In this document: piece after piece, positions 37,161 through 60,685 of the stretch | How positions within the stretch are numbered: the first letter of the stretch is position 1 | Layout: every line of letters begins with the position of its first letter | DNA from: Rariglobus hedericola | Lineage (GTDB): Bacteria > Verrucomicrobiota > Verrucomicrobiia > Opitutales > Opitutaceae | Length of the DNA stretch: 64,000 nucleotides | Reading direction: 5' to 3' | NCBI RefSeq assembly: GCF_007559335.1 | Contig: NZ_VMBG01000001.1 | Location: 1,860,001-1,924,000, forward strand | Translations under genes and position numbers: made by a program | Notes under the pieces: model-generated | Told to the model about the DNA's origin: nothing | Databases searched by the model: none | What the model saw: only the letters and a program-made list of their open reading frames with translations

Positions 37161-37310
37161 CGCGAGTCCCCGCCTGCGGTTGAGGCCTTCTGCAGACGGC
37201 CTGATGCAAGGGATAAGCCTTGCTGGCATCTACCCCCGCCATCGTGACGCCTGCATCCCCTGTGCCGACAACCTGGCTCCGGGCGAATGCCAAAAGGGCC
37301 CCAAATACCC

Positions 37311-40300
37311 ATGAAATTGCCAGATACCCACGGGCCCGCGGTCCCGAAAAAAATCCGCCGTCTCGCCACCTTGTCCTCGCTTTGCTTCGCGCTAGCCGGA
37401 TGGGGCGTTTCCACCGCCCACGCCCTCACCGGCACGATCAACAGCAACGCCGCCGACGCCGCGGTCAACGACCTTGCCGGCGTCACCAGCGTCTCCGGAG
37501 CGACCTCGACCTTTTGCAAGGTCGGCAACAGTTCGGCTGACGCCACCCAGCTCGGCGTCGTCCATGTGTTCGAAATTCCCGCAGCTCTTCTGAGCGATCC
37601 CACGCAGCAGTTCGACACCGCAACCTACAGCGCGCGTCTCGTCTCGCTCGCTTCCTCCACACGCAACGCCGATCTCTACGGACTCGGCTATCGCACCAGC
37701 CCCACCGTGCTCGCCAGCGATTCCTACGTGGGCGCTCTCGACGGCTCCGCCACACTGCTCAAGGACAACTTCCTCGTGCCCGGCATGAGCGCCAGCATCC
37801 AAACCGTCTCCAACACCACCTTGGTTGCCTATTTGAACACGCAGCTCTTCGCCGCCCGCGCCGCCGGCGCGACGTCCGCCTACGTGTTTTTCCGCACGAG
37901 CCCCGAATCCACCGCCGGCAACTGGCAATGGTTCCAACTCGGCATGGTTGAAGGCGGCGGTTCCAGCATCCCCACGCTCGCTTACTCAAGCTCCACCATT
38001 CCCGCTCCGGCCTGGGTGCCGATTCCGCTCGGCGGCGGCGGCTGGGTGACCGGCCTCATCTGTGACGCCACCGGCACCGACATCTATTGCCGGACCGACA
38101 ACGGCGGCGCGTTCCGCTGGGTGCCGTCGACCGGCGAATGGATTTCGATCACCGACACCATTGTCCCGGTCACCACGGTCAATTCCGCCGACCTGATGGG
38201 CATCGCCGGACTCGCGATCGATCCCGCCAATTCCAACAACCTCTACGTCGCCGCCGGCGGTGCGACCTCAAGTGTGCTCCACGGCATCTACGCCTCCACC
38301 GACAAAGGCGCGACATGGACCGCCATCAATTCCTCGATCGTCGTCGCGGGCAACGAGGTCCCCAAGGCCTTCGGCGAACGCCTTCAGGTTGATCCCAATA
38401 ACTCCAACATCCTCTGGTATGGCTCGACTCAAGACGGCCTCCAAAAGGGCGTGAAGTCCGGATCCACCTGGACGTGGACGCAGATTCCCGCGACCTCCGT
38501 GCCTTTCGGCGCAGTGCCTTCCGGCAGCAAGGCCGGCGTCTCGTTCGTCGCCTTCGATAAAAACGGCGGCAGCCCGATCATGTATGTCGGCGTGTATGAC
38601 AGCACGGTCGGCGGCACCACCGGCGGCGTCTACCAGAGCACCGACAGCGGCGTCACGTGGTCCAAAGTCTCCGGCGTCACCCTCTCCACACCCGCCCGCG
38701 GCGAAGTCGCCGCCAATGGCACACTCTACGTGACCGCCAACGGTCTCGTCGCCAAGATGCCGCGCGGCGGCTCGCTCTCCGCGATCACCCCGCTCGCCGC
38801 CACCAACTACCGCGCCCTCGCCGTCGATCCCAACGACTCCAGCGGCAACACCGTTTACATGGGTCTCTCCAGCGGCGGTTCCAACAGCAAAATCTGGCGC
38901 ACCGCCGACGGCGGCGCCACGTGGTCCACCCAGTCCACCAACTTTAACAATGCGCTCTCCATCGCTGCGCAGGAACCCGACGGCACGCCCAGCGTGATCG
39001 GCTACTGGTTCGGAGCGATCTCCGACCTGCTCGTGCGTCCGGGTAACTCCAGCGAACTCTGGGCCGGCGATTTCTTCGGCGTCGCCCGCAGCCAGAACGC
39101 CCAGCTCCTCGGCGGCCCCACCGGCAATCAAGCCATCTGGTATCGTCTCCAAAAAAACCAAGAGCAGACGATTTCCAGCACGCTCCGCAACGCGCCCACC
39201 GGTCCTGAACTCATGGCCGGCCTGATCGATGTCGGCGGCTTCCGCTACAACGATATCTCGCACCGTCCTTACGGATCCTACGGCAACGCGATGAAGAACC
39301 CGATCGATTGCGCCAATGTCACCGGTCTCGATTTCAGCGAGTCCAACAACGCCATCTGGGCGCGCGTCAGCACCAACAACACCGCCGGCGGTTCCACCTA
39401 CTACGGCACCGGTTCCTACACCCGCGACGGTGGACTCAACTGGACCGCCTTCGGCGAGATCGACCGCAAGCAGATCACGATGGGCGCCGCCGGCTGGCAG
39501 ACGTGGGACCTCACCACCTACCTCGCCACGCAAAAGGCCAAAGGCATCAACACGGTCACGCTACTCATCAGCACCGACCAAAATTCCTCCCGCAGCACCA
39601 GCGTGGTGAATTTCGCCTCCAAGGAAAACGCCACCACCACGATCCGTCCTTACCTGCTCGTCAACGGCGCGACTTCGCTCGCGCCATCTCACGACGCCCA
39701 GGTTTACGCCAACACGCCGACCACCGCCGATACCAACACCACGGGCAACATCGGGGTTTCGTTCTCCTACGCCTACCTCACCGCCGATCAACGCTTCAGC
39801 TATCTAAAGTTTGATCTCAGCGGCGTCAGCACGATCACCTCCGCCGTGCTGAATCTCTACCGCCAGTCCGGCACTCCGGTCGGAGTGATCTACCCGGTAG
39901 GCATCTACGCGTGCGCCAACACCACGTGGACCGAGACTGCGGTCACTTGGAACACCCGTCCTTATCCCTACGCGAGCGGTATCGGCGAACCCAATGTTTC
40001 CGGTCGCTACCTCACCGCCGCCGGACAAAACCTCAGCGGCGGTCGTATCGCGATCTCCGGCACCAATCCCAGCCAGCTGGTGTGGCTGCCGTTCAAAGGC
40101 CTCAGCTCGACTCCGCACTACAGCAACGACTGCGGCGTCACTTGGTCGCCCGCCGCCGGACTTCCCTCGAACATCAACGGCACCATCGATAAATCCAACC
40201 CCGGCTACACCATCCAGCAACTGGCCGCCGACCGCCTGAACGGAAACTTCTACCTCGCGCTCTTCGGCGGGGGCGGCAGCGGCAACCACGGCATCTATCG

Positions 40301-40748
40301 CAGCACAGACGGCGGCGCCAACTGGTCGCTGGCCGGCACGGTCGCGGCGGGCACCTACAACGTCTATCGCGCGCAAATCATGGCCGCTCCCCAAGCCAAC
40401 GATATCTGGGTGTGCGACGACGGCGTGGCCGGCTCCACCGCCGGCGGTCTCTGGCGCTCCACCAACGGCGGCACCACGTGGTCCGCCAAACTGCCCAACA
40501 TCACCGCGGTCGGACTGGTTTCCTTCGGCAAGCCGCCCGTCGGTTCGTCCTACCTGTATTCCGTGTATTTCTACGGATACTACAACGGCGTGAAAGGCAT
40601 CTACCGCTCCGACAACTACGGATCCACCTGGGTCGCGATGCCCACGTTGCCCACCGATGCCAACATCCAAGGCCTCGCCGGAGACCGCCAGACGCCCGCC
40701 AGCGTCTTCATCGGCACCGGCGGTCGCGGCATGTTCCAAGGCCAGTAA
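37311..40748 (+). CDS. GH74-like beta-propeller protein with inserted permuted CBM96-like domain
   Basis: A secreted 1145-aa protein. Signal peptide to about residue 39. Residues about 40-230 form a beta-rich module (VFEIPAALL, WQWFQLGM). From about residue 235 there are repeated propeller motifs with Asp-box-like forms (STDKGATWTAI, STDSGVTWSKV, TADGGATWSTQ, STDGGANWSLA), the twin-propeller pattern of GH74 xyloglucanases. The blade that ends RDGGLNWTAF (about 714) is interrupted by about 190 residues and resumes at GGRIAISG (about 910). The inserted part matches the CBM96/DNRLRE family in permuted order. Activity on xyloglucan is likely but catalytic Asp residues were not identified. An in-frame start at 37287 is possible. 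Confidence 0.78.
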   Translation: MKLPDTHGPAVPKKIRRLATLSSLCFALAGWGVSTAHALTGTINSNAADAAVNDLAGVTSVSGATSTFCKVGNSSADATQLGVVHVFEIPAALLSDPTQQFDTATYSARLVSLASSTRNADLYGLGYRTSPTVLASDSYVGALDGSATLLKDNFLVPGMSASIQTVSNTTLVAYLNTQLFAARAAGATSAYVFFRTSPESTAGNWQWFQLGMVEGGGSSIPTLAYSSSTIPAPAWVPIPLGGGGWVTGLICDATGTDIYCRTDNGGAFRWVPSTGEWISITDTIVPVTTVNSADLMGIAGLAIDPANSNNLYVAAGGATSSVLHGIYASTDKGATWTAINSSIVVAGNEVPKAFGERLQVDPNNSNILWYGSTQDGLQKGVKSGSTWTWTQIPATSVPFGAVPSGSKAGVSFVAFDKNGGSPIMYVGVYDSTVGGTTGGVYQSTDSGVTWSKVSGVTLSTPARGEVAANGTLYVTANGLVAKMPRGGSLSAITPLAATNYRALAVDPNDSSGNTVYMGLSSGGSNSKIWRTADGGATWSTQSTNFNNALSIAAQEPDGTPSVIGYWFGAISDLLVRPGNSSELWAGDFFGVARSQNAQLLGGPTGNQAIWYRLQKNQEQTISSTLRNAPTGPELMAGLIDVGGFRYNDISHRPYGSYGNAMKNPIDCANVTGLDFSESNNAIWARVSTNNTAGGSTYYGTGSYTRDGGLNWTAFGEIDRKQITMGAAGWQTWDLTTYLATQKAKGINTVTLLISTDQNSSRSTSVVNFASKENATTTIRPYLLVNGATSLAPSHDAQVYANTPTTADTNTTGNIGVSFSYAYLTADQRFSYLKFDLSGVSTITSAVLNLYRQSGTPVGVIYPVGIYACANTTWTETAVTWNTRPYPYASGIGEPNVSGRYLTAAGQNLSGGRIAISGTNPSQLVWLPFKGLSSTPHYSNDCGVTWSPAAGLPSNINGTIDKSNPGYTIQQLAADRLNGNFYLALFGGGGSGNHGIYRSTDGGANWSLAGTVAAGTYNVYRAQIMAAPQANDIWVCDDGVAGSTAGGLWRSTNGGTTWSAKLPNITAVGLVSFGKPPVGSSYLYSVYFYGYYNGVKGIYRSDNYGSTWVAMPTLPTDANIQGLAGDRQTPASVFIGTGGRGMFQGQ
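39456..40031 (+). other. Inserted, circularly permuted CBM96/DNRLRE-like domain within the GH74-like protein
   Basis: Residues about 716-907. The order seen is WQTWDLTTYL (Asp733), FASKENATTTIRPYLLV (to about 783), then SHDAQVY (Asp795), SYLKFDLSGV (about 830) and TTWTETAVTWNTRP (about 873). In the family the DAxV and LKFDLS blocks normally come first and the WDLT and RPxLxV blocks last, so the two halves are swapped. Confidence 0.65.
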
Positions 40749-50001: not shown

Positions 50002-50080
50002 GATATGATTTCTTTGCTCCACTACTCCCGACTTTCACCCGCATGCGCCACGGACATCGTTGTCTCCACCCCGCCGGACC

Positions 50081-54599: not shown

Positions 54600-54744
54600 T
54601 CATTCCGTCACTCGACGGATATAAATTTGTCCGGCCGCGCAGACGACGGCGGTCCTTTACTCACACGCCCACGCACGATGTTCAGACCATCGATGCAGAC
54701 GTCCCGTGTGTTCGCCCTCTCTCTTTAATATCAATCATAGCCCC

Positions 54745-56706
54745 ATGCTTTCACGCCGCCACTTAGTCCATTCGTTGCTGTTCGTCCTCGCGGCGCTGGC
54801 CCTTCCGTTCGCCGCCTCCGCCCAACTGGCACTCCCGTCCACCGCGGAAGCTATCGCCACGATCCGCACCGAGAAAAACGCCGTCGCCACCCTCGACACC
54901 TCCACCGGCCAACCCGCGCTCCGCGTCGAACTTCCCGCCGACTCCGGCTATCCCGGTGTCAACTTCCCGCTCGCGTCGTCCCCGCTTGATCTCTCCGCGT
55001 TCAACGCGATCGAGCTTGAGGTGAGCAACATCAGCCAGACTCGCGTGCGTCTGCATCTCCGCGTGGACAACCCCGGCGACTGGAAAAGTTCTCCGTGGAA
55101 TACCGAGCGCGCCATGCTCGCTCCCGGTGAAACCAAAACCATCCGTCTCTTCTTCGGCCTGAGCCAGGGCCAACCCGCCTACGCCTTGGACCCGAAACGC
55201 ATCAGCGGCATCAAACTGTTCGCCGACGCCCCCAAGCAGACCAATGCAACGCTCCTCATCAAGCGTCTCGCCGCCGTCACCGCCCAGCCGCCCGTTCCTC
55301 CACCCGCCGCCAACGCCACTCCGGCCGCACCCCGCCCCTCCACGTCTGCGCTGCCCGAGACCAACAGCCAGTTCTCCCCGCCTATCTCCGGCGAACTCGT
55401 TGATCTGAAATCCCCCGACGCTCTCGCCAAACTCAAATTCAACCACGCCTCCGGCACGATCGCCGACGGCAAACTCACCGTAGCTTTCGCCACCACCAGC
55501 AGTTATCCCAATCTCTACATTCTGATCCCCAAGGACGGCCTCGACCTGACTGCTTTCGCGGGCATCGAGCTCACCGCCACCAACACCGGAACCGCGGCCG
55601 CCGTCACCAATCTGCGCGTTGAAAACCGCCCCAACGCCCGCGCCGACGAGCTCGGTCAGAAGCCGTGGAACACCGAGAAGCTCACCATCAAGCCCGGCGA
55701 AACCGTCCCCCTCCGCCTCACCTTCGGCCAGAACAACGGCTCGCCCGGCTACGATCTCCACGCCGGCCGCGTCTCCGCCATCCAGCTGTTCCTGATCAAC
55801 CCCAAGCCCGGCACCACCCTCGTCCTCTCCGACATCAAGGGCTGGGGCAGCGCGAGCGACCGCAGCGTCAACACTGTCCTCACCAAACCCGCCGATCGCA
55901 CCATCCCGGTCACTCCGCCCTCCTGGATCGGACAACGTCCGCCCGTGGACGGGGACTGGGTGCGGACGCTCGACGAAAATTTCGATGGTGAAAAACTGAA
56001 CGACAAACTCTGGACGCCCAGCTTCCCGTGGGACGGCCTTCAGCCCGGCCAGCTCCAGCGTTATTCCGCCGAGAACGTCACCGTCTCCGGCGGCCAGGCC
56101 AGCTTCAAGGCCGAGAAACGCCGCGGCCATCACAACGATGACCCCGCCCGCCCCGCCCGTGATTACACGTCCGGCATCATCCAGAGTTACGACAAGTTCA
56201 CCCAGCTTTACGGTTACATGGAGTCGCGTATCAAGCTTCCCACTACACGTGGACTCTGGCCCGCCTTCTGGACCATGCCCGACCGCGGCGCCGCCTCCGG
56301 CCTGAACATCTGGCAGCGTCGCAGCACCAGCAAAGGCGCCATGGAAATCGACATCATGGAGCACCTCTGCGAATGGGGCCCCGGCCGCCACAACGCCGCC
56401 ATCCACTGGGACGACTACGGTGAGAACCACAAGGCCTGGGGCACCGGCATCTTCTACGGTCCCACGCCCGACGGCTGGCATGTCTTCGGTCTGCTCTGGG
56501 AACCCGGAAAACTCACCTGGTTCATCGACGGAAAAAAGGCTGCCGAGTGGGAAAACGAACGCGTCTCCGTCGTCCCCGCCTACATCAAGCTCAACATCCA
56601 GATCGGCGGCTGGGCCACCAAGAACGTCGATGACGCCAAGCTCCCCGATTACATGACCGTGGACTACGTGCGCGTCTGGCAACTCCGCGACCGCCTGAAG
56701 AATTAA
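54745..56706 (+). CDS. Glycoside hydrolase family 16 with two N-terminal beta-sandwich modules
   Basis: A secreted 653-aa enzyme. Signal peptide at about residues 1-28 (ending ASAQ). Two related modules follow (about 30-185 and 215-385), sharing SAFNAIELEVSN/TAFAGIELTATN, PWNTE and PGETxxxRLxFG. The catalytic jelly roll (about 415-653) has WVRTLDENFDG, GLWPAFWTMPDRG and the GH16 signature MEIDIMEHL, whose two Glu are nucleophile and acid/base. GH16 enzymes cut beta-1,3 or beta-1,4 glucans and galactans. The specificity is not clear; agarase, porphyranase or laminarinase are all possible. The ATG at 54745 starts the signal peptide. It leads an operon with FAD oxidoreductase, GH16 and GH39 genes. 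Confidence 0.88.
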   Translation: MLSRRHLVHSLLFVLAALALPFAASAQLALPSTAEAIATIRTEKNAVATLDTSTGQPALRVELPADSGYPGVNFPLASSPLDLSAFNAIELEVSNISQTRVRLHLRVDNPGDWKSSPWNTERAMLAPGETKTIRLFFGLSQGQPAYALDPKRISGIKLFADAPKQTNATLLIKRLAAVTAQPPVPPPAANATPAAPRPSTSALPETNSQFSPPISGELVDLKSPDALAKLKFNHASGTIADGKLTVAFATTSSYPNLYILIPKDGLDLTAFAGIELTATNTGTAAAVTNLRVENRPNARADELGQKPWNTEKLTIKPGETVPLRLTFGQNNGSPGYDLHAGRVSAIQLFLINPKPGTTLVLSDIKGWGSASDRSVNTVLTKPADRTIPVTPPSWIGQRPPVDGDWVRTLDENFDGEKLNDKLWTPSFPWDGLQPGQLQRYSAENVTVSGGQASFKAEKRRGHHNDDPARPARDYTSGIIQSYDKFTQLYGYMESRIKLPTTRGLWPAFWTMPDRGAASGLNIWQRRSTSKGAMEIDIMEHLCEWGPGRHNAAIHWDDYGENHKAWGTGIFYGPTPDGWHVFGLLWEPGKLTWFIDGKKAAEWENERVSVVPAYIKLNIQIGGWATKNVDDAKLPDYMTVDYVRVWQLRDRLKN

Positions 56707-56756: not shown

Positions 56757-58061
56757 ATGAATCAAAATTCCCGTTTTTATGAAGAGCCCGCGCGCAGCCT
56801 GCCCGTCATCGCCGAGTGCGATGTCCTGGTGATCGGTGGCGGTCCCGGCGGTATCGGTGCCGCCGTCGCCGCCGCCCGCAATGGCGCCAAAACCATCCTC
56901 GTCGAACGCTTCGGTTCCTTCGGCGGAACTTGGACCGCCGGACTGCTCAGCGCCATCATGCCCTATCCGTTTGTGAAGGGCCTCTTCCTCGAACTGGTCG
57001 AGCGTTGGACCCAGGCCGGCGGTTGGAACACGTGGGGCGATAAATACGGCGCCGGTGGCAGCTACGACAGCGAGGCCGCCAAGGTCGTCTTGGATCGTTT
57101 CATCGTCGATGCCGGCATCACCCCGTTTTTCTTCGCGCAAGCCACCGCGGTCATCCGCGAGGGTTCGCGTCTCACCGGCGTCATCATCGAATCCAAGGAA
57201 GGCCGCCAGGTCATCCGCGCCAAGATGATCATCGACTCCTCCGGTGACGGTGACGTGTCCGCCCTCGCCGGTGTTCCCGTTGAGCAAGGCCGCGCCGGTG
57301 ACGGCGCCGTGCAGCCGATGAGCATGCTGTTTAAGATGACCGGTGTGGACGACGAGGCGCTCGAGGCTTACCGCAAGATCGACCTACAGCTCACCACCGA
57401 GTGGCAGGCCGCCAAGGCCCGCGGCGAGGTCACCGTCCCGCGCGAAGACGTGCTCCTCGGACGCAACCCGCGTGCCGGCGAATGGAATTTTAACACCACG
57501 CGTATCGTCAACAAGGACGGCACCAAGCTGCGCGATGTCACCGACGCCATGATCGAGGGTCGCCGCCAGGTCTTCGAGGTCGCCGCCTTCCTGCGCAAAC
57601 GCATCCCCGGCTTCGCCAACGCCGTCGTTTCCGAAACCGCCCCGCACATCGGCGTCCGCGAAACCCGCCGCGTTCGCTGCGACTACACCATCACCGCCGA
57701 CGACATCATGGGCGTCCTGCCCGTCGAAGACTGCATCGCCCGTGGCAACTGGTTCATCGACATCCACAGCCCCACCGGCGAGGGCACCGAGCGCGCCCAC
57801 CCGCCTGCGGGCAGTTGGTATGAGATTCCCTACCGCAGCATCCGCGCACAGGGCCTCGACAATCTCCTCGTCGCTTCGCGTTGCATCGACAGCAGCCACG
57901 AGGCCCACGCCGCCATTCGTATTACTCCGCAGGTCATGGCCATCGGCGAAGGCGCCGGCACCGCCGCCGCCCTCGCCGTCGCCCAAGGCCACTGCGACAC
58001 GCGTCAGGTCGATGTGAAACTCCTGCGCGACACGCTGCGCACCAAAGGCGCGTTCGTCTGA
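56757..58061 (+). CDS. FAD-dependent oxidoreductase (FAD_oxidored family), third paralogue
   Basis: A 434-aa flavoprotein with the FAD start CDVLVIGGGPGGIGAAVAAARNG (about residues 21-43), LVERFGSFGGTWTAGL, and a late ASRCIDSSHEAHAAIRITPQ block. It is more distant from the tandem pair at 50081-52785 and has the classical GGGPGG loop. It lies between two GH16 genes, so it probably oxidises a sugar or sugar derivative released from the polysaccharide. A terminator follows the gene. Confidence 0.85.
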   Translation: MNQNSRFYEEPARSLPVIAECDVLVIGGGPGGIGAAVAAARNGAKTILVERFGSFGGTWTAGLLSAIMPYPFVKGLFLELVERWTQAGGWNTWGDKYGAGGSYDSEAAKVVLDRFIVDAGITPFFFAQATAVIREGSRLTGVIIESKEGRQVIRAKMIIDSSGDGDVSALAGVPVEQGRAGDGAVQPMSMLFKMTGVDDEALEAYRKIDLQLTTEWQAAKARGEVTVPREDVLLGRNPRAGEWNFNTTRIVNKDGTKLRDVTDAMIEGRRQVFEVAAFLRKRIPGFANAVVSETAPHIGVRETRRVRCDYTITADDIMGVLPVEDCIARGNWFIDIHSPTGEGTERAHPPAGSWYEIPYRSIRAQGLDNLLVASRCIDSSHEAHAAIRITPQVMAIGEGAGTAAALAVAQGHCDTRQVDVKLLRDTLRTKGAFV

Positions 58062-58080
58062 GTTCGCCGGCGATTTTCGG

Positions 58081-58113
58081 CCGCTCCACGGCTCACACCC
58101 GCGGAGCGGTTTT
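58081..58113 (+). terminator. Rho-independent terminator
   Basis: CCGCTCCACGG / CCGCGGAGCGG stem with one mismatch, a 7-nt loop and TTTT. It separates the FAD gene from the next GH16 gene, which would then need its own promoter or read-through. Confidence 0.75.
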
Positions 58114-58135
58114 CCTTACAGTTTACCCTACCCCC

Positions 58136-60685
58136 ATGAATACCCCTCCCCCCCGTCTACTCCGCCTTCAGTCCGTCTTCCGCCCTCTGTCCTCCGTCCT
58201 CTGTCTTCTGCTGGCTTCCGTGCTCCACGCCCAACCCACCCCGCCGATTCCCGGCACGTGGACACTTACTTTCCAAGACGAGTTCGACGGCACCGCCCTC
58301 GACGGTTCCAAGTGGAAACTTGGCCAGGGTGACGCCGGCATCGAGGGCCCCGGCGGCAACAACCCCGCCAACACCACCGTCGGCGGCGGAAAACTCACTC
58401 TTCGCGCGTCCACCGATCCGGTCGTTTTCGCCGGCACCAATTTCGCCTACTCCACCGGCGAGATCTCCAGTTACATGCGCTTCAAGCAGACCGGCGGCTA
58501 TCTCGAGGCCCGCATGCGTTGGGATCAGGCCACCGGCCTCTGGCCCGCGTTTTGGGTCATGCCCGAACGCGATGGCTACGGCACCAAGGAGTGGTTCAGC
58601 CGCGCCTTCCTCAAATTCAACCTCGCCGGCTCCGGCGTCTCGTCGATCACCAGCGCAAAGCTGCGCATCAAGACCATCGTTGTCGGCAACAGCTCGTCCA
58701 ACCCCAACAACCTCCAGACTCTCGCCGTCACCGACGATTCTTGGACCGAGACCGGCATCAACTGGAACAACCAGCCCGCGCTCAACCCGCTCCACCTCGA
58801 CCACAAGTGGGGCTTCAATTCCGCCGCCGGCGACATCGTAGAGATCGACGTCACCGCCTGGGCGCAGGCCCAGCTCGCCGGCGACGGCGTCATGTCCGTC
58901 GCCCTCTCCGACGAATTCCGCCGCGCCCGCGCCATGCGTTTCCACAGTCGCAACGCCGTCAACGCCGCCGACCGCCCCGTCCTCGTCATCAACGGCTCCG
59001 TAAATGTCGCCCCCGCCGCCGACGCCGCCGTCAAATGGGGTTCGTATTCGTCCACCAACTACGGCAGCAATGCCGAGCTCGAAGTCCGCACCGACTACGC
59101 CCAGTCCCCCAACAACAGCACCACTGCCGACGGCGGCATGGAGCTCGACATCATGGAAGCGCTCGGTGTCTGGGGTAAAAACGTCGCCTCCCACGCGATC
59201 CACTGGGACGGCTATGGCGCCAGCCAGCAGTCCCGCGGCTGGGGCCCCGTGCCCGCCCTCAACACCGACACCACCTACCGCACTTACGGCTGCTACTGGG
59301 TGCCCGGCGAACTCATCGAATTCTACGTCGATGGCGTAAAGACCGGCTCTTACACTGACTCCCGCGTGATGACCGTGCCCGGCTACCTCATCCTCTCGCT
59401 CCAGCTCGGCGGCTGGGATGCCAATAACGTCACCTCCGCCATCCACAACAAGACCGTCGATGTCGATTACGTGCGCGTCTGGTCCGGCACCAAGAGCACC
59501 CCGGCGATACCCTCCGCCACCTCCCGCGCCGCCAACGGTGCCATCTCCTTCGGCACCGACTACTCCGTCTATTCCGCGCAGCCCAACGCCACCGGCCAGG
59601 TCACCATCGCCGACGGCGGCGCCGCTGTCACCGTCCACAAGGACTCTTGGTGGAAATTCCCGCTCAATTACACCGTCACCCCCGACACCGTGATCGAGGT
59701 TACTGTCGAATCCGCCGCCCCTGGCGAGATCATCGCCTTCGGCCTTGAGAACAACGACAGCCATACCGACGCCAAACGCCTCTTCCACTTCGCCGGCTCG
59801 CAGGTCTGGACCGGTGCGTGGACCGACTTCAAAGACTACGTCTCCGCCTCCGGCCCCAAGACCTACCTCATCCCCGTCGGCCAGTTCTACACCGGCGCGA
59901 TGACCCACCTCGCCATCGCCAATGACAACGACGCCGGCAACAAGGCCGTCGCCGCCCGCTACTCCAACGTGCGTATCCACGAGGGACTACAATCCGTCAA
60001 CTTCACCTCCGTCGAGGGCTACGCCAACGGCACGTTGCACAACCAGCCCGCCTCCGCCCCCGCCTGGCAGCTCGTGTCGGGCTCCGGCAGCTTCAACATC
60101 AACCTCGCCTCCGGTCTCACCGTAAACACCGCCCAGACCACCGCTCAAAACGCCGTCTGGCAGACACCCGTCAGCTACACCGCCACGCCTTCGCGCACCA
60201 CCGTGATGGACTTCGGGTTCACCCAGTCGGCCGCCACCGGAGGCACCGCCACCATCGTCTCCCTCGGGCACTTCTACAACGCCACCTCAGCCACCACCAA
60301 CCTGCGCGCTTACTTCGGCCGGGCCTCCGGCACCGACGCCTACCGCATCGGTTTTTATCAAAACAACGGCTCACCCGCGACCAGCCTCACCGCCAACGTC
60401 GCTGGCTCCGCCCTCGGCCTCAACTCCACCGGCGGTGACAATGTCTCGGCTCCGCTCCAACTAAGCTTCACACTCAATCGCGGGGCCACTTTCTCCGACT
60501 GGACCGCGACGGTCACACTCAAAAACCTTACCTCGGGCTCGACGGTGGCGACGCTCAACGTCCCCGCATTCATCACTTCCGCCACGTTCTTCAGCGACAC
60601 TTCGCTCTACCCATCGATCTCCAGCGAATCCATCCAGAGCACCGCGCTCAGCCAGTTCGCCATCACCGGCTACACCTCGCCCTGA
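58136..60685 (+). CDS. Glycoside hydrolase family 16 with inserted permuted CBM96-like domain
   Basis: A secreted 849-aa enzyme. Signal peptide at about residues 1-33, its core encoded by a dispersed repeat. The GH16 domain starts with WTLTFQDEFDG (about 42) and reaches GLWPAFWVMPERDG (about 135-148). It is then interrupted by about 178 residues and resumes with the catalytic motif MELDIMEALG (Glu336, Glu341), HWDGYG and VDYVRVWSG (about 440). Residues about 460-620 and 620-849 are two further beta-rich modules, probably carbohydrate binding. No PEP-CTERM signal is present. The start at 58136 is the first ATG that begins a signal peptide; CCC precedes it. The GH39 gene follows after 12 nt. 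Confidence 0.85.
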   Translation: MNTPPPRLLRLQSVFRPLSSVLCLLLASVLHAQPTPPIPGTWTLTFQDEFDGTALDGSKWKLGQGDAGIEGPGGNNPANTTVGGGKLTLRASTDPVVFAGTNFAYSTGEISSYMRFKQTGGYLEARMRWDQATGLWPAFWVMPERDGYGTKEWFSRAFLKFNLAGSGVSSITSAKLRIKTIVVGNSSSNPNNLQTLAVTDDSWTETGINWNNQPALNPLHLDHKWGFNSAAGDIVEIDVTAWAQAQLAGDGVMSVALSDEFRRARAMRFHSRNAVNAADRPVLVINGSVNVAPAADAAVKWGSYSSTNYGSNAELEVRTDYAQSPNNSTTADGGMELDIMEALGVWGKNVASHAIHWDGYGASQQSRGWGPVPALNTDTTYRTYGCYWVPGELIEFYVDGVKTGSYTDSRVMTVPGYLILSLQLGGWDANNVTSAIHNKTVDVDYVRVWSGTKSTPAIPSATSRAANGAISFGTDYSVYSAQPNATGQVTIADGGAAVTVHKDSWWKFPLNYTVTPDTVIEVTVESAAPGEIIAFGLENNDSHTDAKRLFHFAGSQVWTGAWTDFKDYVSASGPKTYLIPVGQFYTGAMTHLAIANDNDAGNKAVAARYSNVRIHEGLQSVNFTSVEGYANGTLHNQPASAPAWQLVSGSGSFNINLASGLTVNTAQTTAQNAVWQTPVSYTATPSRTTVMDFGFTQSAATGGTATIVSLGHFYNATSATTNLRAYFGRASGTDAYRIGFYQNNGSPATSLTANVAGSALGLNSTGGDNVSAPLQLSFTLNRGATFSDWTATVTLKNLTSGSTVATLNVPAFITSATFFSDTSLYPSISSESIQSTALSQFAITGYTSP
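58155..58215 (+). repeat. Pyrimidine-rich dispersed repeat, copy 3, in the coding sequence of a signal peptide
   Basis: CCGTCTTCCGCCCTCTGTCC and following units match the repeats at 7282-7362 and 21757-21818. Here they are translated as residues about 7-27 of the GH16 protein, including its hydrophobic core. Confidence 0.6.
58583..59119 (+). other. Inserted, circularly permuted CBM96/DNRLRE-like domain within the GH16 catalytic domain
   Basis: Residues about 150-328. The order is SRAFLKFNLAG (155-165), DSWTETGINWNNQP (about 202-215), VEIDVTAWA (Asp238), RPVLVING (about 280), then ADAAVKWGSYSSTNYGS (Asp296) and ELEVRTD (about 313). In the family the DAxV and TNYGS block is N-terminal, so here it has moved to the C-terminal end. 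Confidence 0.7.

Follow-up and report, generated by a model that had tools for sequence, protein, structure and literature searches.

We found that a GH16 beta-glycanase encoded in the window (the whole stretch of 64,000 nucleotides of Rariglobus hedericola DNA analysed here) carries, within its catalytic domain, one complete, circularly permuted beta-sandwich of the CBM96 type. The data show the order and completeness of the insert, its conservation and single origin, and an intact fold of the host. A first-pass annotation of this DNA had proposed the permutation from the sequence; that reading is supported, and the phenomenon is broader than proposed, with a second, differently cut permutant in the same 64-kb window. 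The best overall explanation, which we regard as fairly probable, is that a permuted CBM96 originating in a tandem array was spliced into a GH16 loop, where it extends the catalytic cleft.

Host enzyme and gene neighbourhood

The gene product is a predicted secreted GH16 enzyme (Table 1). Its open reading frame spans 57881–60685; translation probably begins at the ATG at 58136, giving a Sec-type signal sequence at the N-terminus (MNTPPP...). The GH16 profile (PF00722) matches the protein in two stretches flanking the insert (47.3 bits, cut-off 22), with WPAFWV at 58541 and the MELDIME catalytic strand at 59138–59158, and no Pfam family matched the C-terminal tail. Orthologues with 84–89% identity occur in Opitutaceae bacterium UBA4094, an RX2 metagenome-assembled genome (MAG), and a Rariglobus MAG, and a genome-collection scan for close relatives of the gene gave matches in Opitutaceae only. 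The gene is surrounded by three FAD-dependent oxidoreductase genes, an AraC regulator, an insert-free GH16 gene, and a GH39 gene. Between positions 50060 and 58061, the three oxidoreductase genes (FAD_oxidored, PF12831) are interleaved with two GH16 genes next to the regulator and GH39, an arrangement that looks like a polysaccharide-use cluster in which oxidoreductases recur.

Table 1. Positions of the features in the window.
Feature	Position	Strand	Description
Whole gene	58136..60685	+	849 aa; signal sequence, interrupted GH16, uncharacterised C-terminal region; based on the open reading frame and its translation
GH16 catalytic domain, N-terminal half	58220..58603	+	Ends in host loop WPAFWVMPERDGYGTKEWFSR; aligned to uninserted relatives, fold match from model residue 13
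CBM96 insert, first piece	58604..58999	+	Canonical C-terminal part, about three quarters (AFLKF...VLVINGS); profile about 37–161
CBM96 insert, second piece	59000..59116	+	Canonical N-terminal block (VNVAPAADAAV...TNYGS...LEVRTDYAQSPN); profile 2–31
Right half of host loop (STTADGG) and GH16 C-terminal half	59117..59485	+	Pfam GH16 stretch, residues 333–446
C-terminal region after GH16	59486..60682	+	About 399 aa
Neighbouring GH16 without insert	54706..56706	+	Displays uninserted loop WPAFWTMPDRGAASGLNIWQRRSTSKGAMEIDIME
BNR/GH74-like propeller with permuted CBM96	37248..40745	+	
Permuted CBM96 in propeller	39459..40037	+	Cut at profile about 97–104; C-terminal part first, then N-terminal; conserved in relatives

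Rotated domain order of the insert

The insert lies between WPAFWVMPER and MELDIME, and comparison with uninserted relatives places its flush limits at about 58604–59116 (171 residues). The first-pass annotation had described an interruption of about 178 residues by a CBM96/DNRLRE domain; the domain assignment agrees with the Pfam and NCBIfam matches, but its limits (58583–59119) took in some of the host loop. In native order, the insert scored 101.7 bits against Pfam CBM96 (PF24517; cut-off 26), with the match split in two: residues 155–287 corresponded to profile positions 39–163, and the N-terminal block came after them. With the last block put first, the match became a single stretch over profile positions 4–163, scoring 110.9 bits compared to 106.7 bits summed over the two native stretches. 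The NCBIfam DNRLRE model (NF033679) also matched the insert, with 77.2 bits rotated and 75.1 bits native. Using an independent canonical profile built on 14 CBM96 domains taken from other phyla, we scored all 185 rotations of the insert, the best of which, joined between LVINGS and VNVAP, reached 113.3 bits (profile 2–161), compared to 98.2 bits (37–161) in native order. A better match after rotation, which had been suggested as the test of permutation, was therefore obtained with both the Pfam and the canonical profile.

The collinear CBM96 order is absent: the insert runs through profile positions 37–161 and then 2–31, with the N-terminal block last instead of first as originally noticed, and is therefore a circular permutant of CBM96 and not an ordinary member. 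The profile is covered once, no part is duplicated, and in total length the insert corresponds to one domain. We regard the CBM96 permutation in GH16 as virtually certain.

The distance from WPAFW to the catalytic Glu is 21–53 residues in ordinary GH16 domains and about 200 residues with the insert, so the alternative raised earlier, an ordinary GH16 loop shared by many homologues, does not apply. Uninserted loops follow the consensus WPAFWxMPDRGxxxGxxWxR-xSTxxGGMEIDIME and inserted loops WPAFWxMPDRGxYGxxxxxR-[CBM]-xTxTFxGGMEIDIME, with both loop halves retained. The left joint (WPAFW to LKF) has a constant length in 26 of the 27 insert-bearing genes described below, and the right-hand joint is variable in length and has low pLDDT.

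Structural models

The AF2 model of residues 24–454 (pLDDT 84.6, pTM 0.71) was computed from an alignment in which the first CBM strand was misaligned in 13 fragment rows. In a comparison with VIA-align, the GH16 beta-jelly-roll was recovered across the interruption (Z 28.7 to 6XQH over 230 residues, rmsd 2.3, model residues 13–429), and the model thus shows the host fold to be intact despite the insert. Modelled alone, the insert reached a pLDDT of 83.5 and a pTM of 0.82. Its best structural match was 8WAB (Z 14.2, model residues 5–143 on chain residues 48–186), followed by 7VBO (Z 12.3, 134 residues, rmsd 2.5, model residues 5–141 on chain residues 31–179), with the third-ranked match at Z 9.1. 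Strands 148–155 and 169–173 of the insert model have no sequential partner in 8WAB or 7VBO. As expected of a permutant, the alignment covers the C-terminal part only, and the last two predicted strands appear to replace the canonical first strands.

Distribution and evolution of the inserted GH16 genes

The same insert, at the same site and with the same cut, was found in 27 GH16 genes from at least six families of the phylum. Full-length members occur in at least 9 of 373 genomes of the order and at least 7 of 388 genomes of the phylum (families f1, f11, f20, f29, f47, and f79), both tallies being lower bounds because few candidates were scored per genome. Every member read has the identical insertion point, the identical cut, and the ExDxxE catalytic motif, which is intact in 27/27 members, as the first-pass annotation had stated for the window enzyme. 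In phylogenetic trees, the 27 inserts form one clade (99), as do the 27 GH16 cores (99), which points to a single insertion followed by inheritance with duplication; on these trees, a single origin of the permuted insert in GH16 is highly probable. The insert is under purifying selection, with dN/dS values of 0.12–0.24 against three orthologues, not far off those of the GH16 part (0.11–0.12).

Genomes of the same genus contain the orthologue and several full-length paralogues of 46–53% identity. The permuted-insert genes have multiplied in these genomes (L091/L022, L092, L093, and L094), with up to five copies in G074, and often stand beside uninserted GH16 genes. One GH16 protein with the permuted insert (L110, G277:C4) also has, further downstream, a CBM96 in canonical order (protein residues 178–346 and 499–651, respectively).

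A differently cut CBM96 in a propeller enzyme

A second permuted CBM96 lies in the product of the gene at 37248–40745, which has BNR/Sortilin-like matches and carries what we take, by our own reading, to be GH74-type motifs. Its cut lies after the WNxRP loop, unlike that of the GH16 insert. Three further paralogues in the genome (L132:3324–4064, L133:2196–3002, and L133:6005–6781) contain the same permuted CBM96, at the same blade position in 4/4 copies, and the permutant is also present in relatives from other families of the phylum. The gain on rotation was 28 bits for the window insert and only 6 bits for one of the L133 inserts. Since the propeller permutants form a clade separate from the GH16 inserts (94), the tree argues for an independent second permutation of CBM96, which we consider very probable.

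Origin of the permutation

The rotated order could in principle be imitated by two half-decayed CBM96 domains, the end of one and the start of the next, lying in the loop with no single domain among them. Such a pair would give the same order of profile parts, but it is hard to reconcile with a profile covered once and nothing duplicated, with the single compact and confident model of the insert, and with purifying selection on a segment kept in at least six families, and we reject it as very improbable. An assembly or binning artefact has a negligible chance of being correct: several of the relatives are MAGs, but the same arrangement recurs in independent assemblies, including the single-contig genomes G287 and G710, and an order conserved in 27 related genes is due neither to chance nor to misassembly. 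For the permuted single domain, the likeliest route, which we hold with moderate confidence, begins in a head-to-tail CBM96 array, from which a piece one repeat long would have been copied out of phase into the GH16 loop of an ancestral member of the phylum. A one-repeat piece taken out of phase from a tandem array is a circular permutant by construction, and the propeller permutant would represent a separate event in another phase. A suitable array exists in the genome itself, where a BNR-propeller protein (L095/L139, G000:C1:359160–360161) has at its end two canonical CBM96 copies, arranged head to tail and almost without a linker. The permuted-propeller model matches this tandem pair across the repeat boundary (positions 26–188, 129 bits), and the GH16 insert likewise aligns across the boundary with 33.5% identity. 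Against a tandem origin, the canonical domains closest to the GH16 inserts in the tree come as pairs spaced by FN3-like segments and not as direct tandems. A rival route places the permutation after the insertion: a canonical CBM96 entered the loop and was duplicated in tandem there, after which the N-terminal part of the first copy and the C-terminal part of the last were lost. Circular permutations are known to arise by duplication, and the end product would be the same, but among the relatives fetched in a non-exhaustive survey none of the GH16 proteins had a CBM96 in canonical or duplicated form at this position, and we treat this route as a less probable contender. No intermediate forms toward the permuted GH16 insert were found among the relatives surveyed.

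Cut site and the catalytic cleft

As the first-pass annotation had suggested, the insert should adjoin the active-site cleft, given that the loop before the GH16 catalytic strand borders the cleft on the side of the negative subsites (PMC6827312). In TM6-N4, K27 and R36 are among the groove residues, and S30, K31, S33, and D34 lie along the groove wall between the two (PMC9971899). Mapped onto the window insert, K27 corresponds to the R of LEVR, and R36 coincides with or is adjacent to the R of SRAFLKF, so that the cut falls between the two equivalents, in the canonical hairpin of 7VBO-type CBM96, and the tip of the groove hairpin is replaced by the GH16 active-site loop. The K27 position holds R in the window protein and K or R in about half of the members. 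In the window protein, as in many inserts, the R36 equivalent is one residue off register, and some inserts lack it; the groove may thus have another ligand or none.

The new ends of the insert connect with the loop halves that immediately precede the GH16 catalytic strand. We propose that the groove hairpin and the active-site loop would thereby become one structure. With its hairpin opened and spliced into a loop bordering the negative subsites, the CBM groove would probably form a rigid extension of the catalytic cleft, as opposed to a flexibly tethered anchor. It could then grip a long polysaccharide chain on its non-reducing side, with a gain in affinity or processivity. We put the chance that the groove extends the cleft at about even; the pTM of only 0.71 for the full model and the variable, low-pLDDT right-hand joint weigh against it. 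It is also conceivable, and in our judgement rather unlikely, that the insert is purely structural or targeting, stabilising the loop or adhering to cell wall or matrix with no part in the cleft. The shifted or absent R36 in many inserts speaks for such a role, as does the existence of many CBM96/DNRLRE domains without a known ligand (PMC9971899); the insertion into a loop bordering the negative subsites, the left joint of fixed length in 26/27, and the basic residue kept at the K27 position in about half of the members speak against it.

Comparison with known systems

CBMs are usually viewed as appended modules on linkers. A permuted CBM set flush beside an active site would escape that description, and linear domain annotation misreads such enzymes as a split GH16 with partial CBM96 matches. 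Together, the GH16 and GH74-like propeller enzymes of this one genome provide at least two independent cases. A tentative generalisation is that Verrucomicrobiota enzymes repeatedly recruit CBM96 permutants into catalytic loops, each cut at the CBM loop facing the host active site, with permutation acting as a natural groove-to-cleft fusion. Two cuts of CBM96 in one genome allow the selection of groove orientation by permutation to be tested.

The insert shares a common profile (PF24517, NF033679), the beta-sandwich, the DDSWTE landmark, and a basic residue at the K27 position with TM6-N4 of the alginate lyase Dp0100 (7VBO), an alginate binder in which R36 is essential (PMC9971899). Compared to TM6-N4, its strand order is rotated, its groove hairpin is opened and fused to the host, and it lies inside the catalytic domain and is not appended to it. 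Its best structural match, 8WAB, is the chondroitin sulfate-binding CBM of a chondroitinase, in canonical order and solved as a separate module. Other GH16 enzymes, such as the laminarinases 6XQH and 3ILN, have the same fold and ExDxxE motif, whereas in the window enzyme the loop before the catalytic strand carries a 171-residue domain; known variation at this loop consists of length changes only, for example in xyloglucan endo-hydrolases (PMC6827312).

The first-pass annotation regarded this architecture as undescribed, and in the papers searched we found no GH16 enzyme with a circularly permuted or inserted CBM, but natural permutation between CBM families is known from CBM36 and CBM60 (Montanier et al. 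2010, as cited in PMC4725902). That case resembles ours, as far as this secondary account goes, in being a natural circular permutation of a CBM and differs in the families concerned. To our knowledge, the CBM36/CBM60 permutation is not inserted inside a catalytic domain. Natural CBM permutation and domain insertion are therefore both known, and what we did not find described is a permuted CBM set flush into a catalytic loop, in two independent cases that are cut differently. MalS of GH13_19 (PMC10223318) is a naturally permuted glycoside hydrolase with a CBM, but there the enzyme's own domain order is permuted and no CBM is inserted. The engineered CP90 of RoCBM21, a permuted CBM that folds and for which improved binding is mentioned (PMC3511584), is man-made, unlike the insert described here, which would be a natural counterpart of the engineers' goal of a binding domain rigidly integrated with the cleft.
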